Origin: Peribolospora baueri
Lineage: Eukaryota; Basidiomycota; Peribolosporomycetes; Peribolosporales; Peribolosporaceae
Reading direction: 5' to 3'
Assembly: GCA_029717555.1 (NCBI GenBank)
Contig: JAMDHS010000027.1
Coordinates: forward strand, 62,001-126,000
Length of the DNA stretch: 64,000 nt
Below, piece by piece: positions 6,553 through 57,101 of this stretch; position 1 is the stretch's first letter, and each line of letters begins with the position of its first letter. The position numbers and the translations under genes were made by a program. Under the pieces are notes generated by a model that saw nothing but the letters and a program-made list of their open reading frames with translations, was not told where the DNA came from and made no database searches.

Positions 6553-6651
6553 AACCCCGGAAGTTGTGTGATCTCCAGTCGATCGCCACTGGTCCATGCT
6601 TCTGCTGTCACCTCTTCGCCACCGCGACCGACCGCCGAGGACTTTTTCATC

Positions 6652-9600: not shown

Positions 9601-12600
9601 ACATTGTGTCATTAGTGAGTTCTCCTGACGTTACCCTTTGCCACTGCATTGTGCTATCAATGCTGATGTGCCTGTTTTGCTTGTGACACGAACCTACGCC
9701 GTCTTGAAGTCAAGGGCACGCAGATTTACAATCCTGAGAAGGGGCGCTGGATGGAATTGAGCCCTCAAGATGTGCTGCAGATGCTTGGTCGTGCGGGTCG
9801 GCCTCAGTACGACACGTTTGGCGAGGGCGTTATCATCACGAACCATACCGAGCTGCAGTACTACCTCAGCCTCATGAACCAGCAGCTGCCCATCGAGAGC
9901 CAGTTTATCTCCAAGTTGGCCGATAACCTCAATGCCGAGATCGTTCAAGGCACAATCAGGAATCGCGATGAGGCTGTCCAGTGGCTCGGATATACGTGAG
10001 TGCATTGATTACTAGAATTGCCTCTGCCGAATCACGCTCACAGCTTCTTGCGTTTTTCACGCTCGCAGGTATCTGTTCGTCCGTATGCTCCGCTCGCCCT
10101 CCCTTTACGGCGTCGGTACCGACTACCAAGAGGATGACCCTCTCCTCGAACAATTCCGCTCCGATGCCGTCCATACCGCAGCGGTGTTACTGGAAAAGAC
10201 GCAGTTGATCAAATACCAGCGTCAGTTGGGTCTGTTCCAGAGCACTGAACTCGGCCGCATCGCTTCGCATTACTACATCGCCCATACATCGATGGCGACG
10301 TATAACAAGCACCTCAAACCCTACCTCAGCCTTGTCGAGCTGTTTAGGGTGTTTGCGCTAAGCGACGAATGTAAGTTTGATGAATACAGTGTGCGTTTTG
10401 TTGGTGTGAACATTCTGCTAATTTATATCGTCTTACTTTTCCTGATTTCCCTTCTAGTTAAATATCAAACCGTACGAGCAGATGAGAAGAACGAACTGCA
10501 GCGTCTTCTCGAGCGCGTGCCCGTCCCTGTGCGCGAGTCATCAGAGGAGCCTATCGCCAAGGTTAACGTCCTGCTACAGACGTATATCAGCAATCTCAAA
10601 CTGGAAGGTTTCGCTCTTGCAGCTGATATGGGTGAGTGATTTGCTCGTCACTGCTTTAGAGGCGCGAACTTAGTTACTCAATTATTCCGTGCCTGCTCGC
10701 TTTTCACAGTGTACATCACGCAAAGCGCCGGTAGATTGCTTCGGTAAGTGCTTGTTCCCGTTCAGCCCATTTATTGTTTGGCATCTCGATGTGCAGAGCC
10801 GCTCTGACCGAATTTGCCGCCCTGCAGCGCTTTGTTTGAGATGGCCGTCAAGCGCGGTTATGCCCGGCTCGCACGATTGACGCTCAGCTTGTGCCAATCT
10901 GTGGAGCGAAGGCAGTGGAGCGTGAGTAGCAGTGGCTGTCACCTGTCGATCGATGTTTGTGGCTTAACGTATGGCTCTCTATTTTGGGTATTCACAGACT
11001 ATGACGCCACTGCGACAGTTCCGTCTGCCGCAGGATCTGATCCGAAGGTGAGCTTTTTTTTCCCTGTCAACCATTCAGGTTCCAGAGCTGATTGGGATTC
11101 TTCACTCTTATCACTCTTATCACATTCATCATAAAGGCTGGAGCGGAAAGAGTTCCCCTTCAACCGCCTCCTCGATCTTGCGCCTAACGAGCTCGGCGAA
11201 CTGGTTGGTGTACCGAAGGCCGGACGGTTATTGCATGAGACCTTGCACAAATTCCCCAAGGTATGCTTTGCATTTCAATGTCGTTCTGCTTCGGGTAAGC
11301 GAGCAAGCGCTAATGCTTTGGATGTGATGACAGCTTGAGCTTCAAGCGTTCGTCCAGCCCCTGACGCCTAGCCTGCTCAAAGTCGGTGAGTATGTGGCGC
11401 TCAGACTACGTGCGTCACAGGGCCTTTGCTGAGAAGTGCAATTGCCGATTCCCTTACCTTCAGATGTGACCATCACGCCGGACTTCCAGTGGGACGAAAA
11501 GTGAGCGTGCCCATATCTCGGGCTATTTATCAGGAGGATATAAGACTGATATATTGTCTGGCTTTCCGACATCCAGAGTGCATGGTACTGCGCAAATGTT
11601 CCACCTGTTTGTCGAGGACCCCGACGGCGAGCAACTTCTATTCGCCGACACGTTTGTGCTGAGACAGCAGTTCAGCGAGGACGAGCACACTATGAGTTTC
11701 ACCGTGCCACTGACCGACCCGCAGCCGCCGGCCTACTACATCTCCATCCTTTCGGTTAGTCTGTCTTGTATTGTCTTTGGGACCGGGCTTTTGTTTACTC
11801 CGACACCCCTTACTTTCTTCACGCAGGACCGTTTCTTGTCTAGCGAGACGAGATTGCCCGTTAGCTTCATGAACCTCATCGTGCCCGCCAAGTTCCCGCC
11901 CCCGACGAAGCTGCTCGATCTTCAGCCCCTGCCCGTGCAGAGCTTGGCCAATAAGGAGTTCGAAGCCCTATACAAGGATCTTACGTCGTTCAATAAGATC
12001 CAGACACAGGTGGTGAGTTTTCGTTAGCCGATGGGCTTTCTATTTTGATGCACCCTGACCGTATCGCCCCTGTCCTGTTCTCAGTTCCATGCTCTTTACC
12101 AAGGAGACGACAACGTCCTTGTGGCGGCACCGTCTGGCAGCGGCAAAATGGTTGCGGCCGAATTCGCGCTTCTGCGTCTTTGGGGTTCCAAGAAGCCTGG
12201 GCGGTCGGTCCTTATCGTTCCTTACCTATCCATGGTCAGCCAGCGCGTGGCCGAGTGGCGTCAAAAGTTCGGACAGGTCCGGGGTGGCAAGACGATCAGC
12301 GGTCTGACCGGCGACACTAGCGCAGACCTGCGATTACTCGAAGAGAGCGATGTGGTCGTGGCGACGCCCGAACAATGGGACGTGCTATCACGCCGATGGA
12401 AGCAGCGCAAGAACGTCCGCGAGGTTTCGCTCTATATCTTCGATGAGGTGCAGCAACTCGGTGACAGTGGTTCGCTGGGAGCCACGTACGAGATGATCGT
12501 GTCTCGTGCGCGATATGTCGTCGCCCAGAGCAAATTCCCGACTCGTATCGTCGCTTTGAGCGTATCCCTGGCCAACGGCGTGCAGCTCGGCGAGTGGATT

Positions 12601-14902
12601 GGAGCGTCACAGCAGACGACATTCAACTTCGAGCCCAGCGCGCGACCGATCCCAATGGAAGTCCACCTCCAGACGTTCTCCATCCCCCACTTCCCCTCGC
12701 TCATGCTCGCAATGGCGAAGCCGACGTACCTCGCCATCGTCGAGCATGCCTCCACGGAGCCGGTGATCGCCTTTGTGCCATCGCGTAAGCAGGCCAAGCT
12801 CACTGCAAACGACTTGCTTTCTTACGTCCTTGCGGACGAGAGCGAGGACCGGTTCTTGAACATCGAAAAGGAGGACCTCCAGCCTCATCTCGACTACCTC
12901 GAGGACAAAGACCTTGCCGAGACTTTACAGTGCGGTATCGCCTATTACCACGAAGCCCTCAGTCGGCAGGACAGGCGCATCGTTGAGCGGCTCTTCCAAT
13001 CGGGTGCGATCCAGGTTCTTGTTGCGTCCAAGGACACGGCTTGGAGCATGCCCATGACGGCGCACATGGTTATCATCATGGGCGTCCAGAGCTATGAAGG
13101 CAAGGAACATCGCTACGTCGATTATCCTATCGCCGACGTATTGCGTATGGTCGGAAGGAGCCTTCAACCTGGAGAGGATGGCAACAGCCGAGCGGTGCTC
13201 ATGACGCAAGCGACCAGGAAGGACTTCTACAAGAAGTTCCTTAGCGAGGGCTTGCCGCTTGAAAGCCACTTGCCGCACTATCTTTATGACCACTTCAACG
13301 CCGAGTGAGTTACACTTCTTGACCGACGAGTGTAATTGTTTGCTTACTTCCACTCACGTCCTCTTTACAGGATCGTGTCGCGCATCATCGAGAACAAGCA
13401 AGATGCGGTTGACCTGCTCACTTGGACGTATATGTGTAAGTGCTCGAGTCTGCTACGGTTTGTTGCTTTGGCCCCAGCTTTAACAGCAGATTTTCTCCTT
13501 TGGTCAACAGACCGCAGAATGACGAGCAACCCTCAGTTCTATAACATCAATGGAACGACCCACCGTCATCTGTCTGACGCTCTGTCTGAGCTCGTCGAGA
13601 ACACGCTCAACGACCTGACGAACGCCAAGATGATTTCGATCGAGGACGAGATGGACACTACTCCGCTCAATCTGGGAATGATCGCCGCTTACTACAACAT
13701 CAGCTACGTCACCATCGATGTGTTCAACATGTCGCTAAAGGAGCGGACGAAGATGAAGGGTCTGCTCGAGATTGTGAGCTCCGCAGCCGAATTTGAGGAC
13801 ATGCCCATCCGACGCCACGAGGACAGCCTCCTGCGGCGAATCTACGACCGCGTACCTGTCAAGCTCGACAAGGCCGACTTCAACAGCCCGTACTTCAAAG
13901 TGTTTATATTGCTGCAAGCACACTTCAGTCGCCTCGCATTGCCGGCGGACTTGGCCATCGACCAAGAGGATGTCTTGAGGAAGGTTCTCAATCTGCTGAG
14001 CGCGAGCGTGGACGTGATGAGTTCCAATGCACAACTCAACGCAATCACCGCAATGGAGCTGAGCCAGATGGCGGTGCAGGGTGTGTGGGAGCGCGACAGC
14101 CCGCTTAAACAGATTCCTCATTTCGACAAGGAGCTTATTTCAAAGGCACAAGAGAAGGGTGTGGAGAGCGTGTTCGATTTCATGGTGAGTTGGTGTTTGG
14201 GTGAGAGGCGAGGGGGAATTGCTGGACTTTTAGAGAGACTGATGTGGATTGTCCTTGTTTCTCACAGGAACTCGAGGATGACGACCGAAATCATGTGCTG
14301 GCAGGTCTGACGCAGCGCCAAGTGCGTGACGTGGCGACGTTTGTCAATGCCTTCCCGTCCATCGAGGTATCGCACGAGCTCGAGGAACCTGAAGAGGGCG
14401 AGGGCTACGCGTCTGGGACGCCGATCACGTTGAACGTGACGTTGTCGAAGGAGGACGAAGACGAGGAGGAGGAGAGTCAGGACGATGGAATGGCCATCGC
14501 TCCGCTTTACCCAGGCAAGAAAATGGTCACCTGGTGGCTTGTCATAGGCGACCCGGCCACAAAGCAGCTCCTTGGCATCAAGAAGGTGACCGTAAAACGC
14601 AAGATCGAAACGCGGCTCGACTTCACGCTGCCCAAGGTGGGCGAGTACGCTCTCAAGCTCAGCCTCATCTGCGACAGCTACATTGGCGCCGACCAAGAGT
14701 TCGACTTGCCCGTTTCTGTGAGTCGCCAGTTTCTGTTCTCTATGCGTCGTCTCGTCTCCTTCAGTTGCATCGACGTCGCCCATGCTTACATGGTCACCTT
14801 TGTCTCCTGTCGCCCGCACAGGTCACCGTTGAAGGCGAGGAGTCTTCAGACGAAGAGTCGTCGGAAGATGAGGAGGATACGGAGATGAAAGACGCAGAGT
14901 GA
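6652..14902 (+). CDS. BRR2: Pre-mRNA-splicing helicase Brr2 (U5 snRNP 200 kDa)
   Basis: Ski2-like RNA helicase that unwinds U4/U6 to activate the spliceosome. Twenty-one exons: 6652-6721, 6825-8622, 8713-9164, 9247-9442, 9532-9614, 9710-9995, 10069-10370, 10458-10631, 10710-10743, 10828-10921, 10998-11047, 11137-11260, 11334-11385, 11464-11500, 11577-11754, 11827-12012, 12085-13304, 13371-13435, 13511-14184, 14268-14717, 14822-14902. They sum to 6606 nt, or 2201 residues, the usual Brr2 size. The N-terminus has the Brr2 block [19 protein letters not shown]. The first cassette keeps [13 protein letters not shown] and [10 protein letters not shown], then a Sec63 unit. The second cassette is degenerate ([12 protein letters not shown]), as in all Brr2 proteins where only the first is an active helicase. 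The C-terminus ends in an acidic tail after the second Sec63 module. Two exons are only 34 and 37 nt. Confidence 0.96.
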
Positions 14903-36460: not shown

Positions 36461-37599
36461 CCTGGAGTGCGCGGTCGCCGAACTTGGAGCGACTGCGACA
36501 GACTAGACAGACACGTGTTGGTCCGAGCTCGCTTTGCAAACGCCGCTGCAGGGCTCGGTGGCGCGGAAGGAGACGGTGGCGCGGAAGGAGATGGGCGACG
36601 GCACAGGGCAGGAAAAGGTCGACAAGGTGGCAGGACAGGCGAGAAGAGAGTTCGTTAGCGTCGGGCCGCCGTGACGGGTCCGCTAACCAAGATCCTACGG
36701 GGCCGCGGTCGCCTTGCATACATGCAATGGTGGTAGTGGTGGTAGTACATAGTACAGTTACTGTAGTAGCAAACGGGGACGCGACAAGGCGTGGCAATGC
36801 GTTCATGCGGATGGACGTACGCGGACTAAGAGGCTAGCCCAAAATAAGTCGAGTGGCTTGGTCGATGTGAACTTTGCTGCTGCTGGTGCCAGCGAGCGGA
36901 CCCGTCGGCGCCTTCGCTTCGCTTCGGTGGGTGTGCCTCGGCCCCGCGGCCGTGTCTGTGTCTCGCCTGCGAGCGCGCATGAGATGGAGGACTGCTCGCC
37001 GTCGCTCGTCGTTGGTGCGACCGGGCCGGCTCGAGCTGGAGCTGGAGCTGGCGTTGGCGTTGGATCGCGCCTCGCTCGCTCGCTCGCTCTTCTTCCTCTC
37101 ATTATGTGTCGTCGTCGTCCATTTAGACGCGCTCGCGCTTTGCCGCCGCCCGTATACGCGCTCGCTCGCGCGCGACCCTGAACAAGTAAAGTAACCGCCG
37201 ACGCGCTCGATCGTCGTCGTCTTAGTCGGTCGCCGCCCTCGCCTCCCTTGCACAGCATCGCCCCGCCGCCCCACCTCGCTTTCCCCGAACACTCGTGGGT
37301 CGCACTCGACTCGGCGCCGCCGCGCCTCGGCAGCCGCTGTTCCTGTCACCGGACGGCTTGTCGCGAGGCAGACTAGCACGAGACGCGACACGACGGCGGA
37401 CTCGGTCCAGTTTATCGCTGCACGGTCCGTCATGCCCTCCGTCGCCGTCTCGCTCGTCCCATCTCGTCCCGGACGGCTTGCCTCGCTCGGCCCGAGACGG
37501 ACGTGGCGGCGCTCGCCCGCTCGTCGCTTGGTGGGACGGACGGACGTCGGTCCAGTCCGACTGGCGATGACCGACTGGCGGGGCGATGTGGGGTACACC

Positions 37600-37620
37600 G
37601 GACGGACGGACGGACGGACG
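37600..37620. repeat. (GGAC)5 microsatellite
   Basis: Five tandem GGAC units. It is one of several tetranucleotide repeats between 35590 and 45560. Confidence 0.8.
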
Positions 37621-37779
37621 ACGGACTGGCCGGCGGCCTGGCCTGGCCTGGTCTGTGGCCTTGCCTCGCCTGTCTGGCCGACCCTGCTTGACTCGACGGC
37701 CGGCTAGCGCCGCGTCACCGCGTCAACGCCTTGCCATCGTCCTCTTAACTGTCTCCACCTCACGCACAGCCTTCTCTTC

Positions 37780-37890
37780 CTCTCCACCACCCCCCCTCCG
37801 ACCTCCCCCTCCCTCCCCTCCCCTCCCCTCCCCTCTCCCTCCTCTTCCTTCTTCTTCTCCTTCTCCCCCTTTTCTTTTTCTTTCCTCCCC
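37780..37890. repeat. Polypyrimidine tract with CCCCT repeats
   Basis: More than 100 bases almost entirely C and T on the plus strand, including four tandem CCCCT units. The minus strand therefore has regularly spaced GGGG runs that fit a quadruplex pattern. Confidence 0.7.
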
Positions 37891-37985
37891 CTCTCGCGCC
37901 AGCGACGCCCGCTCCTGCCCGCTCCTCTTTCTTCTCCTTCCCCTTTTCCACACCGCCCTTTCCTGCGCATCCTCCTCTGTCTAGG

Positions 37986-38032
37986 GTGAGTGAGTGAGTG
38001 AGTGAGTGAGTGAGTGAGTGAGTGAGTGAGTG
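37986..38032. repeat. (GTGA)12 microsatellite
   Basis: Forty-seven bases of perfect GTGA repeat preceded by CTAG. Because the commonest 5' splice site in this window is GTGAGT, the repeat is also a tandem array of perfect splice donors. It lies about 0.9 kb upstream of the bHLH start codon. Confidence 0.9.
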
Positions 38033-38179
38033 TCGCCGTTTCTTCGTCTCCGTCTCCGTCCACGTCGCCTTACTCGGCCGGCGGATCGCCCTGGGCCATG
38101 CAAGCAATGCACCCGCCGATGTCGTGTGCGAGGTACTGCGGGCGATGCTACCCGAAGCCAGCGTCGCGGAAGGGCGGAG

Positions 38180-38208
38180 AGCGAGCGAGCGAGCGAGCGA
38201 GCGAGAGA
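38180..38208. repeat. (GCGA)n microsatellite
   Basis: About seven GCGA units within the leader region of the bHLH gene, close to the GTGA array. Confidence 0.7.
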
Positions 38209-38906
38209 CAGAGAGACAGACGGACAGAGCGAGCTCGCCCGGCGTTGGGCTACTCGGGCGTGGCTTGGCTTGGCCGATGACGACGACGACGAGGAGGACG
38301 CCGAGGACGGTGATAACGGAAACGGACGGACGGATGACGACGGATAGTGATGCTGACCGACGTCCATCTTTCCCCACCGTCGACCAGCCTCGTACGCTTG
38401 AGCGCCAGCTCGTGTTCAGGTCTCCTCTCGCCCTCGCACTCGCCCTCGCCCTCCCCTCTCCGGCCGCCTTGAGCTTGACCGTCTCGCTCGGCGCCCGCCC
38501 TCCTCCCACCGCCCCCTCCCAGCACCACCACCCACACCCCTCACCTCCCACACACGTCCTCGGCCGTTCGCTCGCTTCGCCTCACCTCGCCAGGCCAAGC
38601 TGATCGCTGGACGTCGACCCCCACCCCCCCTCGCACTCGGACGGTCTCGCTCGCAGTGTCGCGTCCCTCTCTCTCCTTCTGTAATACTCGAACGGTACAC
38701 CTGCCGGGTTCCTTTTCGCCATCCTAGCTCGCCCCTCATCGACTCACATCAAAGAACAGCCGATAGCCCCGCCCCGTCTAAGGCCCGCTTTTATTCGAGA
38801 GCCAACGATCGCACCTATACAATCTATCCCAGCTATCGCCTCGAGGCGCCCTCCGTTCGGCGCGCCCAGCGCATCTGTCGACCATTCGCCTTCTCTTGCG
38901 CTCACC

Positions 38907-40953
38907 ATGACTTCCGTCGCCGTTTCCACTCCCGCATCCTTCACCCCCGCCTCTGCGTTCGAGTATAAGACGCCGGACCCGCGCATTTGCGACCCGTCCG
39001 ACGACCCTTTCTTCGGTCTCCGTGCCAACTTTGACGTATCCGACCTCAACCTCCTCGTCCACGCCGCTCCCATCGGCCTCTCTGCAGGCGGTGTCGGCCT
39101 GTCTGATTCCACCCCCTGTTCTGCTGCTGACGCCTGGCTTCCCACGCCTGTCGCCCTGGACCTTGTTCTCGGCCCAAACCCCTCTGGCGACGCGCTCATC
39201 GCTACCACCTTTAAACCCACCCTCGACGCTGTCGGCCCCGCCAGCCCGGCGAGCGACAGCGGCGCCTCCCAGTCTTTCGACGTCTCCAGAGAGGTCTCCG
39301 TCGCCGCCTCCTCTGCCCTCGCCATGTCTCCCGAGACCCCCTTGCGCAAGAGCCCCCGCAAGGTGCTCCGCTTCACTCCTTTCGCTGAGGACGCCCTTCT
39401 CACGCTCAAGGGCTTAGACCGCGACTTTCCCGACGACGCTCCTGGCGAGCCCAACGCCAAGTCGTCTGCCGGACGCAACCAGTCCGGCGTAGGCCCCGTA
39501 CGGACGAGGTCCGCGGCGGCGGCCGCTGCCGACGGCGGCAACGGTGGCACCAGCGGAGCCTCCGCTCCGTCTGGCCACCAGGCACGCACTCGCCCGTCTG
39601 GCTCGAGCAGGCCCAGCAGCGGTAACACCTCGGGTACCGGCGGCGGCTCTGGCTCTGGCTCCGGCTCCCGCTCTGGAGGCTCTGCCGGCGGGAGCGGCGA
39701 CGACGATCGTGACCGCGACGACAAGGACAAGCAGAGGCCCGAGAGGAGGAGCAATAACGCCGAGAAGAGGGCCAACCACAACGCGGTCGAGAGGGCCAGG
39801 AGGGAGAGTCTCAACACTCGGTTCCATGTTCGTGTCGTCCCGGCTCCATTGTCGTCTTTCCTTCGACCTTCACGCTTAACGCTCGCCGTCTCCTTTTCTG
39901 CACCCACAGGCTCTCGCTAAAGCTCTCCCCGGCCTGCATGACATCCGACGCCCCTCCAAGTCGGTCATCGTCAACAAGTCGCTCGAATTCATCAGGGCCG
40001 CCTATGCCCGCGACGTCGCTCACAACGTGCTCCAAAACGCCTTACGCCGCGAGTTCGACGACATGATTGCCGAGGTCAACATGTACCGCCGTGAGCGTGG
40101 CGCCGACGCCTACGACCGCCGTATCCGCCTCCCCGACGAGGCTGGCGGCGAGGGCACCATCCCACCCTGGGTGCCTGAACCGCCCGCCGGCTTCGACCCC
40201 ACCTCGGTCTTCGTCTCCGGCGGGCCCATGCCGTCGGCCATGTTCGGCGGCGTCGACCCCTTTGGCGCCGGCCGCTCCCCAACCGGCGCCGGCCACCCCG
40301 GCTTTTTCGACTTTGGCGCCGTCGATCAGGACGACGCGGACGATGCCGACGACAGCTTCGAAATGGACTCGGAAGTGCCCGGGACGAGCGCTCAGCGGGC
40401 GATCGTTCACGGCCTCCCTGGCAACCTGTCCGCCTTTCCCACCTCTTCCATTGTCTCGGGCCTAGGCCTCTCCGCCCAAGGCCACCAGCAGCAGCAGCAG
40501 CATCAGCATCAGCAACACCAGCAGCAGCACCAGCATCATCACGCCAGCCTGCTCTCCGCGGCAAACCCGTTCGCGTCGCCTCAGTCTCTGCAGACGCCTC
40601 TGCAGACACCTCTCATGACCGGTACGCCCATCCTCGGCGCACATGGCCACCTCTCCGTCTCGTCGAGCCCGGGCGCCGGGAGCGGTCAGTACGCACTCTC
40701 GTCGAGCCCGGCGCCGATCGACCCGCTCCAACAGACGCAGACGCCGATGCCCTCTTCCGTCGGCTCGGCCAGTGTGATGTATCCGCACTACCTGCCCGTG
40801 TCGCCGCACGGCGCCTATAGCGTTGCCGCCCACCATCACCAGCAGCAGCAGCAGGTCCAACAACGACCAACGAGCTCGCGGCAGTCGAGTCAGCAGAACG
40901 TCAGCTTCACTTACCAGGACCTGCTCGACGCCGGCCTCGGAGGTGGCGTTTAA
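38907..40953 (+). CDS. bHLH transcription factor
   Basis: DNA-binding regulator, target unknown. Two exons, 38907-39827 and 39910-40953, close to 1965 nt (654 residues). The intron falls inside the bHLH domain, between the basic region/helix 1 (AEKRANHNAVERARRESLNT, then RFH) and the rest (ALAKALPGLHDIRRPSKSVI, then VNKSLEFIRAAYAR). The His-Glu-Arg spacing of HNAVERARR predicts E-box (CACGTG-class) binding. Upstream is a Ser/Ala-rich region with a KSPRKVLRFTPF basic patch and a Gly/Ser linker. Downstream are acidic patches (DQDDADDADDSFEMDSE) and long Gln/His runs near 40487-40545 and 40838-40860 typical of activation domains. The donor is GTTCGT, weaker than its neighbours. The gene stands alone with several kb of upstream sequence, as is common for regulators. 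Confidence 0.9.
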
Positions 40954-42094
40954 TCCTAAAACGTCTGTCCACCAGTGCCCTCCCCCTTCGTCCTATACCC
41001 TCGGCCCTTTTTTTTTTTTTTTTTTTGTCTTTCTCACCCATCCGGTTCCTGGGCGCTCTTTGAAGAAGACATCTTCCCTCGCATACCTCGTCGTTCTCTC
41101 TCACCGTCCGATTCCCATCCTATTACCATTTCCTTGTATTCCAATCACCCCGACCCGCTCTCGCTCACGACATCGTGTGGATACCCTACCTACACCCCCC
41201 GCTGAAAGCGTCGTTCCGCCTTTGTCCTCACTTTGGTCTTCCTTCGTGTCTTCTTTTTGCCTTCTGTGGATGTCTTTTGGCCTCTGAAAGGCTCTTTTCC
41301 CGTTTCTCTTCCCAGCCCGGCCTTTTATGATTTTCCTTTCATTTGGTCTTTTTTTTTTTTCCATTTCCGCCCCTTCGTCTCCTCCGTCTCCTCCCTCTTT
41401 TCTGTCTCGCTAGGCTGGCCCATGCTCCCGCGCTCAAGTTCAAGTCGATGATGGCTGTCGTCTCTGTATCTCTCTCATCTCTCTCTTTTCCCTCCGCCTT
41501 TTCCTTGCGCCCAGTCCGGCCGTGCCCTCCCTGCCCTTGCCGTGTAGTTCGTTCGCTTATCGTCTGCTCGTCCAAGGGCGCTGAAAGGAATCCATCGAAT
41601 CGAATCGAAGCTACGGCGGCGATGTCCGGCTTGTCCAGTTTGTCCGAAGCGTCCCAATGATCCGTCGTTCGTCCGTCCATTGTGTGATCTGCGATCAACT
41701 GAGAGGAGCCGAAGGAAGGGAAGGTGCCGGGCAGCTAGCTTGCTTTCACTTTCTTCCTTCTTTCCCTTCTTTCTCCCCGCTCGCTCCCACGTCAGCTGCT
41801 AGACTGACTGACCTCGACGAACGAACGAACGAACGAACGCTGGACAGCTCGATCGATGCTCTTCCCCTCCTCCGCTCGTCTCACACGCCCTTCCTTCGCC
41901 CGTGTCTTCTTCCCCTCGCGTGTCACTTCCCCGTACACCACCGCCTCCATCCACAATCTTGTCCTCCGTCGCCCCACCACCACTACCACTACCACTACCG
42001 CCACCGCCGACTTCGCCCGCTCCACCGACACAGCAAAGGTGCGCTCGCTCGCTCCCTTGACTCGTCTTTGTCTTTGACCGGGAACCGCCGTCGG
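40954..42094. other. Intergenic, bHLH gene to aminopeptidase
   Basis: Contains homopolymer T runs near 41011-41028 and 41350-41361, and a (GAAC)5 repeat near 41818-41839. The rest is pyrimidine-rich promoter-like sequence for the aminopeptidase. No gene supported. Confidence 0.4.
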
Positions 42095-45000
42095 ATGCCG
42101 CATGTCGCGCGTCCCTTGCCTTGCTTGTCCTGGACATTGCTCATCGCCGCCCTCGTCGCCCTCTTCGCCTTCCTCGCCTCCCATCCTCCTTCCCTCGTCA
42201 CTCAGCTCCGTCCCCTTTCTCATCTAGGGACACGCTCGACGACCACCGCACGCCGCTTCTCCTCCCTCGCCGCCATGTCCGCCCCCGCCCCCGCCCCCAC
42301 GTCTTCCCACGTTCCCGCAGATGCAAGTTCAGATGGAAAGGACGACCCCTTCCGCCTTCCAAAGCATGTCAGGCCGGTACACTATGATTTGACGGTCAAG
42401 ACGGATTTGGAGAACCTTAAGTATGATGGGTTTGTTGAGATTGAGTGAGTGGGCGAGCGTCTTTCCTCGGTCTCCGCACCGTCTCATGCCGCCCGCACCG
42501 TCTCACGCCGCCGTGCATCGATCGTGTGTGTCGTCGTCGTGGTCGCCGGTCGCCGCTTCGTTCAGCATCGACATCCTCCAGCCCACCTCGACGATCGTCC
42601 TCAACGCCGCATCGCCGCTCCGCGTGACGGCCGCAAGGGTGTCCAGCACGGCGCTCAAGACGGACCAGACGATGAACGTCGAGGTCGTGTCAGATAAACA
42701 GCGCGAGCGCGTCACTCTGTCTTTACCCCCTGGTACGCTCCTTCACCCTGGCTCCAAGGCCAAGGTGTGGGCGTCGTACGAGGCCGAGCTGACCAAGGAT
42801 ATCATGGGTGAGTGATGAGTGGGCGCACAGGACTGGACGGCCGGGCAGGGTGTTGGGTGTAAGAGAGCGCGGCGCCAGCCTTTATTCTTCTCCTTTCCCC
42901 CGCGCCCCTTCCGCAGGCTATTACCGGTCGACGTGGGAGCACGAGAGCAAGAAAGGGTGGATGGCCATCACCCAGTTCGAGCCCACCGCTGCCCGGCGCG
43001 CGTTCCCTTGCTGGGACGAGCCGGAGCTCAAGGCCACCTTTGAGATTACCATGATACACAAGAAGGTCAGTCCCCCCGCATTCTTCCCGCCCCGTCAGCG
43101 CCCACGTTGAAGCTCCATCCTCTTCCCTCCTTCCCCTTTTTTCAGGACACCGTGGCCCTGTCCAACACGCCCGCTGTATCCTCAGCCCCACTGTCCACCG
43201 CTCAAGGTCAGAGCTTGCTCAAGACCGAGGGCAAGACCGAGGGCAAGACCGAGAAGGGCACCGCAGAGGACTCGGATTGGGTCGTGACAAAGTATGAGCG
43301 TACGCCCAAGATGAGCACCTACCTTGTTGCTTATGCCAATGGTAAGTTTGCTATGAATGAAGGACTGGTGGGGTGGCCTGGGACGCTGATTCGCTTTCTC
43401 CCTTTGCCCTCCTCCTTCTCCCCTCAGGCCCGTTCAAGCATCTCGAAAGCTCGTTTACCAGCCCGCTCACCGGCAAGCAGGTGCCGATTCGCTTTTACGG
43501 TGAGTCCACCCCCCTTTTCCTCGTCGTCGCCCGTTCCGCACTCATCCCCGTCCGGCCCGCTCGCAGCCACGCCCGAGTACATCCACCAGGGCCACTTCGC
43601 CCTCGAGGTTACTGCAAAGATCATGCCGGTGCTCGAAAAGATCTTTGACATTCCTTACCCGCTCGCCAAGCTCGATACGCTCGTCGCGTCCGACTTTGAC
43701 GCCGGCGCGATGGAGAACTGGGGCCTCATCACTGGTCGAGCCTCCATCTACCTCTACGACCCTGAAAAGTCCGGCTTGGCGGCCAAGAAAGCGACCGCTG
43801 GCGTGCAGTCTCACGAGTGCAGCCACATGTGGTTCGGTGAGTGCTTTTTTTGTCATTCGGCACCGGCCCCGCCTGACGTGCCGCGCTGTCCTTTCTTGAA
43901 AAAAAAAAAAAGGCAATATCGTCACCATGAATTGGTGGGAGCAGTTGTGGCTCAACGAAAGGTGAGACGACGCGGTCCGATCGTCGTCTTTGCCGTCGTT
44001 GCTCACGAATCTGCGTTCCCGCCCTTCTCCAGCTTTGCCACTCTCATGGGCGAGGTGATCGTACTGGACCGGATCTTCCCCGAGTGGAAGTCTTCGTCCG
44101 AGTTTATCGTTCACCACCTCGACCGCGCCCTCGACCTTGACTCGAAGCGGAGCAGTCACCCTATCGAGGTGCCTCTTGAGGGCGAGAACGTTGAGGATGC
44201 TATCAACCAGGTCTTTGACGCCATCAGCTACAGTCTGTAATCCTCCTCTCTCCTCTTTCTGTCGCGAACTACGTGAGCTGACGACCGCGCACATCTCGCA
44301 TGCAGGCAAGGGCGCGTCGGTGCTGCGCATGCTCAGCAACCAGCTCGGCCAGGAGACCTTCCTGAAGGGCGTCAGCATCTACCTCAAGAAGCACCTCTAC
44401 GGTAACGCCGTGTCCACCGATCTCTGGAACGGCATCTCCGAGGCGAGCGGGCTCGACGTTGCCAAGATTATGAAGAACTGGACGCTCAAGGTGAGTTCCC
44501 CCTGGCGCGACCCTAACCATCGATGGGAAATCTCATCAGCCCTCCGTCTCCTTTGATCGCAGGTTGGTTTCCCCGTCGTGACGGTCACGGAGGAGGAGGA
44601 CGGCCTTCGCATCCGTCAGAATCGGTTCCTTAGCACCGGCGATCTCAGGCCGGAAGAGAATACCACGCTCTGGTACGTCCCTCTCGAGCTCAAGACCGTT
44701 GGGCCCAACGGCCCGGTCGTCCAACACGATGCCGTCCTGGACGAGGAGCGGGAAAAGTTCCTGCCGCTCCCCAACGCCAAGCAGGCCACCTTTAAGCTCA
44801 ACGCGGAGACGACGGGCGTGTATCGCGTGGCCTACACGCCCGAGCGCCTCTCCAAGCTGGGCGAAGAGGCGGCCAAGCCGGACTCTGCGTTCACCGTCGA
44901 CGACCGTCTCGGCCTCGTCTCCGATGCCGTGACGCTCGCCCAGAGCGGCTACTCCAAGACTAGCGGCGCGCTCAACCTGATCGACAAGCTCAAGGGCGAC

Positions 45001-45950
45001 GACGCCTATTTGGTGAAGAGCGCCATCAGCGGTCACATGGCCTCGCTCGTCAGCGTCTGGTGGGAGCAGCCCGACCAAGGTGAGTGACCCCGCCGTTTCG
45101 AGCCCAAGCCGAACGATTCGATCGATCGATCGATCGGAGCTGTCTACTGAAAACGCTTTCGAACCGTAGTGCGATCCTCCATCAACGCCTTCCGCCGGGA
45201 CATCTTCGGACCGCTCGCTGAAAAGCTCGGCTTCGAGGTCGGAAAGGACGACGACGCAGAGCTCCGTCAGCTTCGCTCCGCTACCATCGCCGCCGCAGCC
45301 GCCGCGGGCCACGAGCCGTGAGTAAGGAACCTGAACGTGGTCGTTGGGCCTCTTTCTCCGGCGACGCTTTAGGCCGCCGCGTCACTCACGTCGGCTTCCC
45401 TCCTGTCCTTCGGTCACACAGGACCCTTCGCGAGATTCAGAGGCGGTTCAAGTTGTTTATGGAAGGCGACCAGTCGGCGGTGCCGGGTGACCTTCTCAGG
45501 TGCGTCCCACGTCCTCCTCCCGCCTTCTGTCTGTCCGCCCGTCCGTCCGTCCGTCTTTTAATCCCGGTCGCTGAGATTTGTCGGGACCCTTCTCCAGGAC
45601 CATCTTTGTCGAGTCTGCCAAGCACGGCGGCGAGAAGGAGTACGACTTCCTCCTCTCCGTGATCGGCAAGCCTGCGACGCAACAGCAGAAGGTCCTTGCC
45701 ATGCTGGCGCTCGGATGGACGCAGGATGAGGCGCTCATTGGTGGGTACGAGCGAGGGAAATGAAGCCAGTCGTCTTGTCCCCCCCTTCCCCCGCCCGGCC
45801 TGCTGACCGAATCGAGTCGTGTCGTGCATGCGTATGGGACGTTTGGACAGAGCGGACGCTCAAGTACACCTTCAGCGACGAGGTCAAGGAGCAAGACTTG
45901 ATGTACTTCTTCGCCTCGCTCGCCGCCAAGTGAGCACGCTGGACGTTGTG

Positions 45951-45981
<31 letters not shown>

Positions 45982-46121
45982 GCCGTCACAGCGATCAATC
46001 CCACAGCTCGCTCGTCTCGTCCCCCATCCCCTCCCCGTCTTCCCATAGTCATGCCTCAGCTCTCCCAAGCATATTGCATCAACTGAAGAACTTTTCAACC
46101 AGCAAGTCTGTTCGCTCTTAA
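42095..46121 (+). CDS. M1-family aminopeptidase (Ape2/Aap1 type) with replaced C-terminus
   Basis: Zinc aminopeptidase that trims N-terminal residues from peptides. Exons: 42095-42444, 42566-42807, 42917-43065, 43146-43341, 43428-43499, 43567-43836, 43913-43961, 44033-44232, 44306-44490, 44563-45079, 45170-45317, 45422-45499, 45598-45740, 45851-45929, then probably 46049-46121. Key sites are visible: DAGAMENWGLIT (GAMEN exopeptidase motif), SHECSHMWFG (HExxH) and LNESFATLM (third zinc ligand Glu). Two starts are possible. ATG 42095 adds about 60 residues with a hydrophobic segment and RSTTTARRFSS; ATG 42275 (MSAPAPAP) gives the cytosolic form. Yeast Ape2 also has an N-terminal extension. The family's last roughly 90 residues (after the LAAN position) are absent. 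Instead a 23-residue unrelated tail (HASALPSILHQLKNFSTSKS) reads to a stop. Confidence 0.9.
45951..45979. repeat. Poly(T) run, 29 bases, in last aminopeptidase intron
   Basis: An uninterrupted T29 tract just upstream of the point where sequence resembling the aminopeptidase ends. It could be a pyrimidine tract, or the tail of an inserted retroposed sequence in reverse. I cannot tell which. Confidence 0.8.
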
Positions 46122-46800
46122 GAGCAATGGGAAGCCTTATGGCTCTTGCAATCTTCACAACAACAGGCCTCAGAAGTTCCTTTCTCTTCCAACACATGAT
46201 CTGGACGCATGCAACAGCTCTGAAGAGTCAACAGAAGATGGCTGGTTCGACAAGCACTCAATTCACCGGCCTGAAATGGTAGATGAAGTTGAGAAAGAGT
46301 TGGGAGAAGGAGATAGTGAATATGAAGCGGGAGACGCTGTCTCAGTAGAGGAAAATGGGAAAGAAAACAAAGCGCAGCACAAAAAGTGAGGGACTTCGCG
46401 CTTTGGCTGGTAGCACAAGCAGACAACCAAGACGAACGCTTTGTGGGAGGGGATGTGTTTGGCTCCATCAAGGCAGGCTTGGAATCAATGGAGAAAACGG
46501 AGAAAGAAAGAGCGCTGCATCTTCCTCCTACCTCTTCACGGTAGAGCACGCTTTTTCATGATCCCAGTCTCTAGCCAAAAAAATGATCATTAATGTAAAA
46601 AAAAAAAATACGCCGGCAATGGTGAGGCTTGTGAATGCACTTCATGAGGAAGAGGATTCAACAAAAAAGGCTTAAAATGGACTGATGCAAACTGAGATAA
46701 AAAGATTGAGATACAGAGGTTGAGAAAAAGTGGTTGAAATGAAGAGGTTGAGATGAAGATGTTGAGATGGGACTTAATGTGAGGTGAGGATGGGACGTAG
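46050..46800 (+). other. AT-richer foreign-looking segment with a coding-like frame
   Basis: Base and codon use change abruptly after 46050. One plus-strand frame (about 46125-46388) reads SNGKPYGSCNLHNNRPQKFL, SLPTHDLDACNSSEESTEDG and an acidic tail to a stop. A second frame continues with VRDFALWLVAQADNQDERFV and GGDVFGSIKAGLESMEK. Together they suggest a fragment of an unrelated gene, interrupted between the two. It ends near an A12 run at 46599-46610. No transposase motif, terminal repeat or target duplication was recognised. Confidence 0.5.
46692..46775. repeat. Degenerate 14-bp tandem repeat, about six copies
   Basis: Units of the form TTGAGATGAAGAGG at 46706, 46720, 46734 and 46748, with a diverged copy before (46692) and a partial copy after (46762). 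Found only in the AT-richer segment. Confidence 0.8.
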
Positions 46801-47421
46801 TGATGTGCACGAACCAAATGATCAGCTGCGGCCTGTATCCCTGGATTCGTGCTCTTTTATGTGATTGCGCTACGGCGTTTTTTGGTTGCCCTGTAACACA
46901 GGGTGTGCGGACAGGAGTGCACGTGAGACAGGGCACGGCCCTCCCGTCCCTGGACCAAGCGAGACCGCCTCCCGCACCAGAACGGTTCAAGGTTGGAGAG
47001 CTACGGCAGAACTACGTCTTCCTGTTCCCCCTTTCCTATGCGTAAATAATGGCTTGCCAAGCTTTCCAAAGAAGCCAAGCTTGCCCTCCTCCGTCAACGC
47101 CAGGCCGTTGGCAGTCACGCTCGGCTAATTCGGGACGGTGATCGCTGCTGCGGCGTATCGCGGATGGACACCGGCCGGGAGAAGGGTTGAGGCGGACGAG
47201 TGCGGGGGGTGAACCGAAGGTGAATGCTTGCCGGGTTCACTTTCACCCCGAACGAACGGAAATCGGATGGCCAAAGTCGTCCCCCGATTCTCTCTGGCCG
47301 GTTCATCTCCCTCACGTCCTCCGATTCTCTCCAGCCGATCCATCTCCCTCCACCCGCACCACCACACCCTTTCCTCCCACTTCCACCCCAGTCAGCCTCT
47401 CTTGCTCCACGGCACAGCACC
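46801..47421. other. Intergenic, upstream of thiolase
   Basis: Return to GC-rich sequence. A CCCTGT-AAC-ACAGGG inverted repeat lies near 46889-46903. The pyrimidine-rich part from 47270 is the likely thiolase promoter and leader. No gene supported. Confidence 0.4.
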
Positions 47422-49479
47422 ATGTCCTTCCGCGCCTCTCCCGTCGTCCGCTCTGGACTTCAGAATATCCTCAAGAAGCGGCCTGATGATGTCGTCTTCG
47501 TCACCGCCCTTCGCACGCCTATCGCAAGAATAAAGAAGGGTTTCAAGGATGTGTGAGTTCACTCAGCGGCGCACCCGGCAATTGGGTTGCGAAGAATGTT
47601 AAGGAGATCTGGGATAAGTGACGTATTTCGCATTTCTGACCGTTGCAAAACGATCTTGAATTTTTATTGTTTTCTGTTTGTGCATTCGACAGGGTGAGTG
47701 GCTTTCTTATTTAGAGCTCGCGCTCGCCGGCTTCGCATTCTGGAAGGCCGCGTTTCTGAACGTCCCCATGCTTCACTTATCCTTGTCTTCCTACGTATCA
47801 GTACCCAGAGGAGCTTCTTGTGCACGTCTTGCGTGAGACGAGGCTTCGCCTCGAGTCCCAAGGCGTGAACCCTCAACTGATCGAGGACATTGCTACCGGT
47901 ACGGTGCTAATGGAGCTCGGCGGCGCAAAGTCCGGCAGGATGGCCGCTCTGCACGCCGGCATGCCCATCACTTCTGCATACCGCTCTGTAAACCGCCAAT
48001 GCAGCTCAAGCTTGCAGACCATCACCGACATTGCACAGAGCATCATATCCGGTTCGATTGACGTTGGCGTGGCTGCTGGCGTGGAGAGCATGACCCGAAA
48101 CTACGGCGTGAGTGGTCCTAACCTCCCCTCTTTCTTTCAATTCTCTCATCCCTTCGAAGCAAAACTAGTGATTTGATTTTTTCCGTCATGGCTAACTGTT
48201 TGTGTTTCGTCTACCCCTCCTAAATGGCTCCTCAGACGCGTGCCATTCCTGTAGACCTGTCGCCTACTCTGAAGAACAGCCCGAATGAGCACGCTCGCGA
48301 CTGCATCCTTCCCATGGGCATCACGAGCGAGGCTGTGGCTGAGAAGTGAGCTTTTCCTTTCCATCCTTTCAGAAAAATGGTGGTGATCTCCCGCACGCAA
48401 CTCGAATGCGTTTTGCCTTCACATCGCGCCTCTTTGAAGGACAAAGAGCTGACGTGCTCGTTTCTTTTCGTCCATTTCGTCCCCTGTCGCCAAAAGATAT
48501 GATGTAGGCCGCGAGCGCCAGGACGAGTTTGCGCTGCAGTCGCACCTCAAGGCTTCAGCGGCACAAAAAGACGGCCGATTGGCCTCGGAGATCGTACCGA
48601 TCAAAGTACGGCACATCGCCGAGGACGGCACGGAAAGCGAAAAGCTGGTTGAGCTTGACGAAGGCATTCGACACACCATTTCGCTCGAGAAGCTCTCTCA
48701 GCTCAAGCCGGTCTTTAAGGAGACCGGTGCGAGCACCGCAGGCAACTCGAGCCAGGTCAGCGACGGTGCTGTCGCTCTTACAATGGCCAGGAGGAGCGTT
48801 GCGGAGAGAGAAGGCATGCAGATCCTTGGCAAGTGGGTCGGTGCCGTTACGGTTGGCGTCGAGCCCAAGTTGATGGGTGAGTCTTTTCACGTCCTCAGTG
48901 TTGGCGTGCTGACGCAATCGGCAAGTGAGAGAGCATTGTCTAAAGACATGTACTTGACATCCCATTTTAGGCATCGGCCCCGCCTATGCGACCCCGAAGT
49001 TGCTCCAGCGCTACCAGCTCGGAGTGAAGGACGTGGACTTTTACGAGTTGAATGAAGGTACGTATCCTTTCTTTTGATGGCAAGCTTTGTACGCGAACCG
49101 CCGTACGCGCTCGACTTATCTTTGTTCTCCCTCTTCCTTAGCCTTTGCGAGCCAGTCGCTAATGACGATTGACCATGTCGGTCTTCCGATGGATAGGGTC
49201 AATCCGAAAGGCGGAGCCATTGCGCTTGGGTAAGTGTTCCTTCGTGCCTCGTCGCTGCAACCAGTCTCCCTCCAGACTCTAATAAAGCTTTTTTTTTCTG
49301 TGTACCCCCCCGTCGTCCCCTTTTCTCTTTTCCTTAGACATCCTCTTGGCGCGACCGGCGGTCGTCTTGTCACGTCGCTCCTTACCGAGCTCCGCCGTAC
49401 CGGCAAGGACGTCGGCGTCGCGACTCTTTGCTGTGGAACCGGGTACGGCAAAGCGTCTCTCGTCGTCGCCGAGCTCTAA
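47422..49479 (+). CDS. POT1: 3-ketoacyl-CoA thiolase (peroxisomal POT1/ACAA1 type)
   Basis: Last step of beta-oxidation: cleaves 3-ketoacyl-CoA to acetyl-CoA. Exons: 47422-47552, 47693 (one nucleotide), 47802-48107, 48236-48345, 48497-48876, 48971-49057, 49142-49229, 49338-49479, total 1245 nt (414 residues), the normal size. Catalytic blocks: SVNRQCSSSLQTITDIAQ (nucleophile Cys), ELNEAFASQSLMTIDHVGLP, GGAIALGHPLGATGGR (His) and LCCGTGYGKASLV (second Cys). The N-terminus (RSGLQNILKKRPDDVVFVTA) lacks a clear PTS2 nonapeptide and the C-terminus (VAEL) lacks PTS1, so targeting is unclear. The single-base exon restores the residue pair between FKD and PEELL that relatives have. Skipping it and using a weaker donor at 47551 also keeps frame but loses one residue. 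Confidence 0.92.
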
Positions 49480-50103
49480 GGAACTCGAGTCGTCCGAGGC
49501 CGGACCACGGTGGAGTTTTGGTTCAGCATTCCCAGAGGTGCCAGCCTCCCAACCTTTTTTTTTATTGTCGTTGGGAAGCCGTTCGTTTTGCGCTTATCGA
49601 AGAGAACAATGTGGGCTTGGCCGGGTTTGCTTTTGTATCTTGCCGTGGGTTTCGGTGGAATTGACTTCCAGAGGTACAAGTACAAGTGCTCCCCCCATTC
49701 TTAACTCTATCCGACACAATAACGACCCCATGGGGACGTGTGCGGCACCATTTAGACTCCAAGGATCGAACAAAGACGAGAGCGAGAGGGAAAAATCCAA
49801 GGAAAGATGGAGCACACGGAAATCGTGAAGAAATGGCGGTGCGGACCCGCTTATAACATATCGTCCCTTTTTTTGGAGTCGTAGTGTAGTGTCCGAGCGG
49901 CCAGAGCTTGTAATAGGCTGTTCATACCAGATGGATGGATCGGCAGAGACGGTCTGAGACGACGAGCTGTGTCCAGTCATATCTGCAAGACGGGGAGGGA
50001 AGCGTGCGTGTATACTCTTTTTTTTTCTTCTTTACGAAACGCCACGGACAGGGGAGCCGTCGATTGCTCGCAGGTTGTCCATCAGCAGGGTTAGGATTCC
50101 CAT
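49480..50103. other. Intergenic between convergent thiolase and BTB genes
   Basis: 3' flanks of two convergent genes. Short T runs occur near 49556, 49868 and 50019. No other feature seen. Confidence 0.4.
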
Positions 50104-54230: not shown

Positions 54231-57101
54231 TCAAGCAGTCGGCTGGACGGTAAGGGCAGCCATGTCCGGCAGATCTTCTATGCGCTCGATGAGCTGCAAA
54301 ATGCGCAGGAAGAACACAGACAGACGTAATCAGCTTTGTTTTTATCGCAAAGCGCGCATGACCACCTAATCATTCCATCTCGTCAAAGCGAGATCGTGTT
54401 GCTCACCTTGGTGACTTTGCCGACTGCGATCGTCTTTCCCTCGTCTCGAAGGGTGAAACGACCAAGCTGTGGAGCAAGCATGCGAATATAAGTAAGTAAG
54501 CGAGCGAGCGACACGATCGTTTGATGGTTCGATAGGCAAGTCTGTGGACGAGCAAGGTCAAACGCCGCTCACCTGAGGGTAGTCGGAGAACTTTTCGATG
54601 CAAATCGGAGCCGTCGTTTCGATGAGCGCGACGACCTTTTGACCTGTATAGGGCAGCACGGATACGGAGACCAACGACCTAGTCAATAAAGTTCCGTGAA
54701 CGCGGAATTACGCGAGTACAACTACGAGTGTCGAAGATGGCCCGCACCCTTTTTCGCGAACTGCGGCGGTCGCTTCGACTTCCTTCCCGTCTTCCTGTCG
54801 AAGTAGTGGAGAAGGGACTGGTGTGATCGTATCGACGATGTCGCACAGAAGATGCGAAGGACGAAAATCGAGTGAGCGAAAACTATCCATCCAAGGTCGA
54901 CGGAGGAAAAGGGGAAAGGAAGAGAGGTCCCTCACGTTGATCGTGATCTCCTCAGCGAGAGTGTGAATGTGCATAACGGCGCTATAACCTGCGGTGATGA
55001 TGTTCTTACTCTCGAGGATGGCCAGCTGGGCCTCAAACTGGGTGACGGCGTGCACGGGCTGGCGCACATCGGTGAGCACGAAACCGACCGAGACATCCTC
55101 GTCGTCGACGCCCTTCAACCGGATGCGCACGTTGTCGCCGCAGATGGCCGCAGGGACTTCGTCTTCCATTTCGTTCATGATAGCAGTGGCTTCCACGTTG
55201 ACCTGCGAGGACGAAGAATGAAGGACGAACGCGGCGTGAGCAATGGCCCGAACGCAGGAGAACATACACGAGCCCGCCAAGCAGGAGAAATCAGTCACCT
55301 TGTTGGGCATCAACAACAGCTGGTCGCCTCTCTTGATCTTGCCCGCCTCCAGCTTCCCTACGACGATCGTGCCCATCTCCTTGTACTTCTCCGAAATGGG
55401 CATCTTCATCGGCGCATGGAGCTTGCGGTCCTGCATGGGCAGGTCGTCGAGATACTCGAGCAACGAGGCGCCGCTGAAGGGGAATCGAAAGATGCAGTCA
55501 GGTACGTGGCCGGGTCAGGCGCGATTAATTTAGGGCTAGGGATTATGAAGCCCGCTCACGCAGGAAAGCCTACTCACTTCCACCAGGGGGCCACGTCCTT
55601 GGACACGCGGTCCTTGAGGTTTTGACCCGCATACGCTGAGACGGGAATGAAATGCAGGTCCGTCTTCGGATTGAAGCCGGAGGCGCGCAGGAACGGCGTG
55701 AGCTTGGACTCTATCTCATCATACCTTATCGAAATAGAACGGGAAGGTTGAGAAGTTAGCTTTGGAAGAGAGGACTCGATCGAAGGAGACAAATGGAGAA
55801 GACAACAACCTACCTCTCCTTGCTCCACTCCACGGTGGGGTCGTCCATCTTGTTGATGACCACAATAACCTTCTGCACGCCGGCAGTCTTGACCAGCATG
55901 GCGTGCTCACGAGTCTGACCGCCCTTCTCGAAACCGGTCTCAAACTCGCCTCTGCGCGCCGAAATAACCTTAATCACGACGAGTGTCCGTTCACCATCAG
56001 CGAGAAGCTGGCCGGGACCAGGCGAAGCAAAAAGGAGACTAAAGAATCGTCACTCACGAGGATGGCGATATCCGCCTGAGCGGCACCGCTGATCATGCTG
56101 GGGACGAAGTTCTTGTGACCAGGAGCATCGAGAATGGTGTATCGCCTCTTTCCGGTCTCGAAATAAGCCCTGCCAACTTCCACAGTCTTTCCCTTGGCGC
56201 GTTCTTGGGGGGTCGAGTCAAGGGCCCAGGAGAGGTACCACGACTCTCGACCGGCCTCCTTGGCCTCCTTCTCGTACTTCTCCATCGTACGCTTGTCCAC
56301 CATGCCGCAGAGATAGAGGATGTTGCCGCCCATCGTAGACTTGCCGGCGTCGACGTGGCCGATGAACACGACGTTCAAGTGCGTTTTGACTGCGTATGGA
56401 GAGTGAAACAAGGTATGACGCATGTGTATCCTTTTCAACAATGACAAGCTCGTTCTCGGCAAAATGAACGACTTACGCTCCTCTCCGAGATCGCCGTACA
56501 GGTCTTTCAGAGTCTCCTCATCCGCCACCTCCTTGGTCTGTTCCAGCACCGTGTCCTGGTTGTTCGCCGAAACTTCTGACACTCTCGTTGGCGGCTTGGT
56601 GGCACTGTCACTGGCGCTCTTGGAGACTGGTTCGCGATCCTGAGAGGCGGCGCGGGGAGGCGTTGATGAAGCGCTCTTGGCCCCGCCACCGATGGAGATA
56701 GACACGGGAGCGCGATTCTGAGCCGCCGCCCCAGCGGGGGGAGGCGTTGACGAAGAGCTCTGAGAATCGCCGATGGAAAGGGAAACGGGAGCGCGGTTCT
56801 GGGCGGCCGCTCCAGCGGGGGCAGGCGGTACGGGTGAAGGGCTCTGATAACCGCCGATGGAAAGGGAAACGGGAGCGCGGTTCTGGGCGGCCGCTCCAGC
56901 GGGAGCAGGTGGTACGGGTGAAGGGCTCTGATAACCGCCGATGGAAAGGGAAACGGGAGCACGGTTCTGAGCCGCCGCTCCGGCCGGAGGAGGTGGAGTA
57001 GGCGTGGGTGAAGGACCTTGGCTGGGTGGTCCACCTGGGCCGCCGAAGTTGAAGGCCCGTGCGTTCGGGTTGAAGGAGAAAGGGCGTGCGTTCGGGTTCA
57101 T
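54231..57101 (-). CDS. SUP35: Translation termination factor eRF3 (Sup35)
   Basis: GTPase that works with eRF1 to release nascent chains. Minus-strand exons: 57101-56477, 56389-56058, 55968-55814, 55724-55578, 55473-55299, 55202-54936, 54817-54748, 54643-54573, 54466-54407, 54293-54231, summing to 1965 nt (654 residues). G motifs: GHVDAGKSTMGG, DAPGHKNFVPSMISGAAQAD and, later, NKMDDPTVEWSKER. The C-terminal barrel has GRFTLRDEGKTIAVGKVTKL. The N-terminus starts with two overlapping PAM2-like motifs (MNPNARPFSF, FNPNARAFNF) for poly(A)-binding protein, as in animal eRF3. Then come four copies of a 28-residue repeat (AGAAAQNRAPVSLSIGGYQS...) instead of a yeast-like Gln/Asn prion domain. All splice joins keep phase. 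Confidence 0.96.
56652..56984 (-). repeat. 84-nt tandem coding repeat in eRF3 N-domain
   Basis: Four in-frame copies of an 84-nt unit (27-28 residues). The first two are nearly identical; the last two diverge at their C-terminal parts. The common core is AGAAAQNRAPVS(L/I)SIG. Near identity at DNA level points to recent unit duplication. Confidence 0.85.

Follow-up and report, generated by a model that had tools for sequence, protein, structure and literature searches.

A single guanine at position 47693 (+) is probably a complete exon of a 3-ketoacyl-CoA thiolase gene, and likely a constitutive one, lying between two U2-type GT-AG introns. Splice-site strength, intron length, reading frame and conservation of protein length all favor this assignment of G47693, as the original prediction had held. 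The sites themselves, their strength relative to predicted introns, the frame and the constraint on protein length are established here from a 64-kb stretch of intron-rich eukaryotic DNA, referred to below as the window.

The thiolase gene lies at about 47422-49479 (+). Its predicted protein matches Pfam Thiolase_N with 224.1 bits and Thiolase_C with 142.4 bits, and its best chains in the PDB are 2c7y, 2wu9, 2iik and 1afw, at 46 to 49% identity. We take 2c7y, 2iik and 1afw to be the peroxisomal thiolases of Arabidopsis, human and yeast, respectively. Both the domains and the best solved relatives identify the predicted product as a 3-ketoacyl-CoA thiolase of the ACAA1/POT1/KAT2 type. Five downstream introns of 84 to 151 nt are clear from homology, and the gene is laid out as follows.

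47422-47552 (+): coding exon 1, from the ATG to GATGT (phase 2 end); translation MSFRASPVV...IKKGFKDV
47553-47692 (+): intron 1, 140 nt, GTGAGT...CAG; CTGAC lies at 47636-47640, and the acceptor is preceded by a run rich in T
47693-47693 (+): predicted one-nucleotide exon, a G that completes a Val codon (GTG); from the reading list, site scores and leave-out runs
47694-47801 (+): intron 2, 108 nt, GTGAGT...CAG, with possible branch sites CTGAA at 47756-47760 and CTTAT at 47776-47780
47802-48107 (+): coding exon, 306 nt, YPEELLVHVLRE...ESMTRNYG; from thiolase homology and the gene finder
48236-48345 (+): coding exon, 110 nt; from homology and the gene finder
48497-48876 (+): coding exon, 380 nt; from homology and the gene finder
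48971-49057 (+): coding exon, 87 nt; from homology and the gene finder
49142-49229 (+): coding exon, 88 nt; from homology and the gene finder
49338-49479 (+): last coding exon, 142 nt, with the TAA stop ending at 49479; from the gene finder

The start codon was placed at 47224 when the full window was decoded and at 47422 in all 12 leave-out settings described below, which were given 47301-49700 only. Peroxisomal proteins can carry a PTS2 signal, with the consensus R-L/V/I-x5-H/Q-L, or an SKL-like C-terminal signal. Inspection of the thiolase translation by eye, with its start uncertain, revealed no PTS2-like motif near the start and no SKL-like end; targeting of the enzyme may be unusual, or the true start may lie elsewhere.

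Several other genes were recognized in the window. A gene for the spliceosomal helicase BRR2 occupies 6353-14902 (+), with 22 introns called and long exons that match the Brr2 plug, PWI and DEAD domains. Its exon at 12049-13308 matched chains of 6qv3 (687.7 bits) and 5m59 (687.5 bits), and two further chains with 620.6 and 440.7 bits; the first two are presumably from Chaetomium, the 620.6-bit chain the best human one and the 440.7-bit chain yeast BRR2. For the exon at 6785-8626, chains of 8ro0 (362.4) and 3jcr (350.6) ranked above 5m59 (250.1, from a chain covering part of the exon). We take the DNA to be fungal; an assignment to Basidiomycota would be a guess, made from the intron density of BRR2. 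That a splicing gene shares the window with a predicted one-base exon is most likely coincidence. Upstream of the thiolase, a peptidase M1 domain was found at 43044-44240 (+) in a called gene at 36979-46561 with 26 introns, a call in which two or more genes may have been fused. On the other strand, at 54231-57101 (-), lies a gene whose product resembles the translation release factor GTPase eRF3, with 5lzt eRF3a and 1r5b as best PDB matches.

Splice sites and reading frame at G47693

Exon 1 terminates in ...TTCAAGGATGTGTGAGTTC and has two possible donors, 47551 (GAT|GTGTGA) and 47553 (TGT|GTGAGT). The predicted donor GATGT|GTGAGT, with the intron starting at 47553, was located to the base. Within the following stretch, CAG at 47690-47692 is followed by G47693 and by GTGAGT at 47694-47699, and the acceptor CAG at 47799-47801 is followed by TACCCAGAGGAG, so that the internal site and the next coding exon, at 47802, also stand as originally described. 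G47693 thus has a usable acceptor immediately on one side and a usable donor immediately on the other.

Readings of this region were listed from GT or GC donors at 47536-47559, final acceptors 47802, 47809 and 47811, and zero or one middle exon, with middle acceptors from 47580 onward, GT middle donors and introns of at least 45 nt; those that were in frame and free of stops were kept. Every listed reading with a one-base exon places it at G47693, and this exon gives the sole reading in the list to retain GFKD with two residues before PEELL, the spacing after FKD that had been claimed for it. Apart from the single intron and a 4-nt exon, both discussed below, the other readings add unrelated residues or lose conserved ones. 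With the one-base exon, the predicted mRNA reads GAT GTG TAC CCA (FKD-V-Y-PEELL), with the cDNA GATGTGTACCCAG; a single intron at 47551-47801 would give GATTACCCAG, and a skipped base GATGTTACCC. The base is required for frame or conserved protein length: computed translations showed that skipping G47693 from donor 47553 shifts the frame to a stop, that retention of intron 1 gives FKDV-stop, and that retention of intron 2 after removal of intron 1 leads to a stop six codons on.

A home-made gene finder, restricted to GT or GC donors and AG acceptors, was trained on the window, in which it called 12 genes and 119 introns (median, 92 nt). The finder is crude, and its training introns are themselves predictions. 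Decoding the full window, it picked the one-base exon unprompted. New site matrices were made from the window's 117 other introns, all predicted rather than observed. On this scale, donor 47553 scored at or above 78 of the 117, and donor 47694 at or above 112, its rank in the sequence left by removal of intron 1 being the 92nd percentile; acceptor 47692 scored at or above 57 and acceptor 47801 at or above 30. The two-intron model led the single intron by 14.6 nats, or by 11.0 nats with a wider length distribution.

Leave-out runs, trained without 46600-49700 and given 47301-49700, combined four values of the intron prior with three of the length spread. All 12 settings picked the one-base exon; when the internal acceptor was disabled, the best path left trailed it by 4.1 to 10.8 nats. 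The same runs misplaced the next intron in all 12 settings, at 48168 (exon end 48167) rather than at the homology-backed 48108. Because one-base exons are very rare, a low prior was assigned to such an exon, by our own estimate about 1 in 100000 per intron. The A of the CTGAC in intron 1 sits 53 nt from the intron end; the introns of the window show no sharp branch-point motif (CTRAY in 33 of 115), so little weight is placed on it. A search of the rest of the window for introner-like copies found no match to intron 1 and, to intron 2, only matches of 12-14 bases.

The arrangement was next set against controls from the same DNA. The bare motif YAG-N-GTRAGT is not rare, with three occurrences on the forward and two on the reverse strand of the 64 kb. 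The two strands together carry 403 AG|N|GT sites, of which two score this high: the thiolase site, ranked second, and 37985+. The latter sits in CAGGGTGAGTGAGT (37982-37995, +), a doubled GTGAGT from which an ordinary intron was called at 37990; the two GTGAGT donors, 4 bases apart, are a possible alternative donor pair. When the outer donors were kept and the interior was shuffled, 1 of 20000 sequences gave a lead over the single intron as large as that of the thiolase; with random slices of the window in place of the interior, 11 of 20000 did. Any positive lead was common in these controls (44% of shuffled interiors and 25% of window slices), because the single-intron model is poor here. One-base candidates were also present in 4 of the 58 other introns of at least 92 nt, and none of these gained from being split (best, -3.5 nats).

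Outside the locus, the finder's calls of exons of at most 9 nt numbered nine at the laxest prior (one of 0 nt and two of 1 nt), none at the prior of 1/70, and two (0 nt and 3 nt) at both of the strictest priors. With full-window parameters and no overlap filter, one-base exons appeared at 27776 and 50089 at the laxest prior only (gene scores, 13 and 15). At all four priors the finder also called an exon of zero length at 26502 (-) and one of 3 nt at 388 (-). Zero-length exons, in which two introns adjoin as AG|GT, were called at 26502 (-) in four of four settings and at 57360 (+) in three of four. Their acceptor and donor scores sum to a modest 8.1 and 5.7, and these calls may be artefacts.

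Protein length and the single-intron alternative

Protein length around the exon was compared with that of 82 relatives, namely, 79 bacterial loci and 3 PDB sequences. A scan of genome contigs, which bears on protein length and not on introns, matched at least 594 stretches, at least 592 of them relatives; the best 80, bacterial by title, were kept, and one (L006) was dropped by pattern. In viral contigs, also scanned for relatives, the pattern matched seven times, and none of the seven was a relative. The scan pattern FKD[VT][YTN][PT], which fixes the spacing, is absent from all 79 loci, and their recovery therefore did not depend on it.

The leading alternative, which we consider unlikely, is one ordinary intron at 47551-47801 with the donor GAT|GTGTGA, the protein FKDYPEELL and CAG-G-GTGAGT as a chance decoy. 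Such an intron is in frame, has canonical GT-AG ends and makes a rare event unnecessary. It would measure 251 nt, the figure originally given, a length reached by 1 of the 117 other introns (259 nt), which offers a precedent for it and also marks it as exceptional. Its donor is the poorer one, as predicted, with 4 of 117 others scoring at or below it; a better donor lies 2 nt downstream, and the strong internal acceptor-donor pair would be left unexplained.

The protein comparison also bears against the single intron. As the original prediction had noted, this reading loses a residue (FKD-Y-PEELL), and it does so within a block, G40-L50, that is free of gaps in 82 of 82 relatives. The surrounding segment A29-V53 has 25, 26, 27 and 28 residues in 20, 59, 1 and 2 of the relatives, respectively; it has 25 with the one-base exon and 24 with the single intron, for which MAFFT placed a gap exactly at the missing residue. 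In line with this, the protein with the one-base exon scored 224.1 bits against Pfam Thiolase_N and 443.4 bits against a profile of the 82 relatives, compared with 217.7 and 437.1 bits for the single-intron protein, a cost to the latter of 6.4 and 6.3 bits. On the other side, the thiolase is already one residue shorter than three aligned PDB thiolases just before FKD; the complete loop is therefore not of fixed length, and some change is tolerated.

The residues themselves were also compared. Val occupies the position of the G47693 codon in 23 of 82 relatives, including the yeast chain, and is second in frequency to Thr (31 of 82). Tyr at the next position is rare, seen in 1 of 82, Arabidopsis KAT2, but is present in every reading that ends at 47802.

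Other readings and the proposed order of splicing

The original prediction offered the cDNA GATGTGTACCCAG as a test of the one-base exon. Such a cDNA would indeed support it; however, it would fall short of proof, because a single non-canonical intron, either TG-AG (47554-47801) or GT-CA (47553-47800), yields the identical mRNA. Either would explain protein length equally well, and read alignment alone cannot separate them from the one-base exon. A non-canonical intron is nevertheless very improbable in our judgment: it would be 248 nt long, would leave the well-scoring internal CAG|G|GTGAGT unexplained and would need ends of a kind that is generally rare among introns.

An equally slight chance is given to a longer middle exon within 47553-47801, or to alternative splicing there. 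When the internal AG was disabled, the finder picked a 35-nt middle exon in 8 of 12 settings, a 45-nt one in 2 and the single intron 47551-47801 in 2, but these are the paths that fell 4.1 to 10.8 nats lower, and longer-exon readings bring unrelated residues in or take conserved ones out. A 4-nt exon at 47619-47622, which would give FKDVDYPEELL with one extra residue, was rejected; its acceptor is below all 117 others, and it scored -11.9, versus +3.8 for the one-base exon.

A nested arrangement like the [D2,3] stwintron, with intron 1 internal and the external donor rebuilt as GAT|GTGGTG, shares intron 1 with the best model and belongs to a type documented in filamentous ascomycetes in the available part of PMC5639578, but we regard it as highly improbable, since the rebuilt donor is below every other donor (0 of 117 at or below it), GTG|GTGAGT three bases further stands at the 92nd percentile, and the conserved residue would be lost. 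A [D1,2] stwintron, in which an exonic G ahead of the internal intron would act as the first base of the external donor, was likewise rejected: a T precedes each possible internal donor, 47551 and 47553, and GG comes after the internal acceptor.

For the one-base exon, we infer from the DNA how the RNA would be spliced, how constantly and in what order. Introns 1 (140 nt) and 2 (108 nt) would be recognized individually, by intron definition; one base is too little for cross-exon binding of both inner sites, so each intron is presumably recognized alone. Because the two inner splice sites share that base, their sequential removal is likely. In a likely first step, intron 1 would be removed and the G joined to GATGT, giving GATGTG|GTGAGTGG with the second donor intact; intron 2 would then be removed from GTG|GTGAGT, which is still a strong donor. 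This is the likely route to the one-base exon, and the reverse order, with intron 2 removed first, is a possible alternative. The corresponding intermediates would read GATGTGGTGAGTGGC / GATGTGGTGAGTGG, with intron 1 out and intron 2 in, or CGACAGGTACCCAG, with intron 2 out and intron 1 in, and a single non-canonical intron would yield neither GATGTGGTGAGTGGC nor CGACAGGTACCCAG. Such an intermediate would make the order of steps directly testable. Failure of either step would be harmful, through a frameshift or a premature stop.

Relation to known one-base exons

The original prediction also named a recursive-splicing point as an alternative. It is not really one: in a zero-length site AG is directly followed by GT, whereas the sequence at 47691-47695 is AG|G|GT. 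Recursive splice sites are zero-length AG|GT sites in large introns. The thiolase resembles the recursive sites discussed in PMC4674806 in that a donor lies directly at the end of the spliced acceptor and stepwise splicing is possible; unlike recursive sites, its AG|G|GT falls within a stretch of 249 nt, and the intervening base would remain in the mRNA. Likewise, the [D1,2] and [D2,3] stwintrons described in the available text of PMC5639578 are fungal, have nothing between the two introns and are spliced consecutively by intron definition. There, the internal intron splits the external donor after its first or second base; in the favored reading of the thiolase, intron 1 ends one base before the donor, so that the base is exon. 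The thiolase pair is accordingly not a stwintron, though it would work much like one.

Plant APC11 had been cited as the one known precedent. Its one-base exon is confirmed in the literature, but it does not stand alone, as cases in VPS55, CYP621A and mitochondrial rnl have also been reported; each is compared here on the basis of part of the published account. As in the thiolase, one base lies between AG and GT in APC11 and the frame depends on it (PMC4674806), and the authors favor intron definition with stepwise removal. The APC11 base differs in being an A, its flanking stretch is 422 nt long, and it was proved by cDNA and by base-change constructs in protoplasts. Plant VPS55, treated together with APC11 in a plant survey (PMC8831610), likewise has one base followed by a GTRAGT donor, in an exon missed in annotations. 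The VPS55 case differs in the support reported for it, from conservation across land plants, RNA-seq and RT-PCR, and in having intron retention isoforms in some lineages.

Single bases between adjacent introns are also described for mitochondrial genes. In the fungal rRNA gene rnl of Ophiostoma and Ceratocystis, a single A lies between two group II introns (PMC12308204), which resembles the thiolase in having one base between adjacent introns in a fungus; there, the introns are of a self-splicing type in a mitochondrial rRNA gene, while here they are spliceosomal and in a coding gene. A one-base exon case is also reported for placozoan mitochondrial cox1 (PMC5436844). In the portion of PMC8208691 available, the term occurs only in the reference list. 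Among titles and abstract openings on basidiomycete microexons and stwintrons and on fungal recursive splicing, a search that most subscription journals fall outside, no nuclear fungal one-base exon was found.

In Fusarium CYP621A (PMC12940212, in the part available), AG|G|GT is found in 24 genes, within a 139-nt stretch compared with a median intron of 56 nt, and is supported by reads. The thiolase has the identical pentamer AG|G|GT, also in a fungal nuclear gene and inside a conserved motif; in both, the unsplit intron would be more than twice the usual size, and the base is needed for frame and motif length. The cases differ in that CYP621A is a P450 gene backed by SRA reads and by 20 orthologues (given as 24 genes in places), while the thiolase is represented by one sequence and no reads; the G is the third base of a Val codon in the thiolase and the middle base of a Gly codon in CYP621A. 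The Fusarium report presents its exon as the second of one base and the first in a fungal gene, VPS55 being absent from the main text as available. Its authors suggest that G is favored as suiting both splice sites, an idea that fits G47693.

Taken together, these comparisons make G47693 of the thiolase a probable further case of a known but very rare kind, most likely spliced sequentially. More tentatively, it could be the first one-base spliceosomal exon in a fungal housekeeping metabolic enzyme, beyond the Fusarium P450s and possibly outside Ascomycota, in which an intron gained one base upstream of an existing donor would have led to obligate two-step, stwintron-like splicing, with either failure frameshifting or truncating the thiolase; we hold this fuller account to be possible rather than probable. 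Over-long introns in conserved blocks are suggested as a way to find one-base exons. Each independent case indicates that spliceosomes can join two introns one base apart, presumably by intron rather than exon definition, and a second fungal gene with the AG|G|GT of Fusarium suggests that such exons recur.
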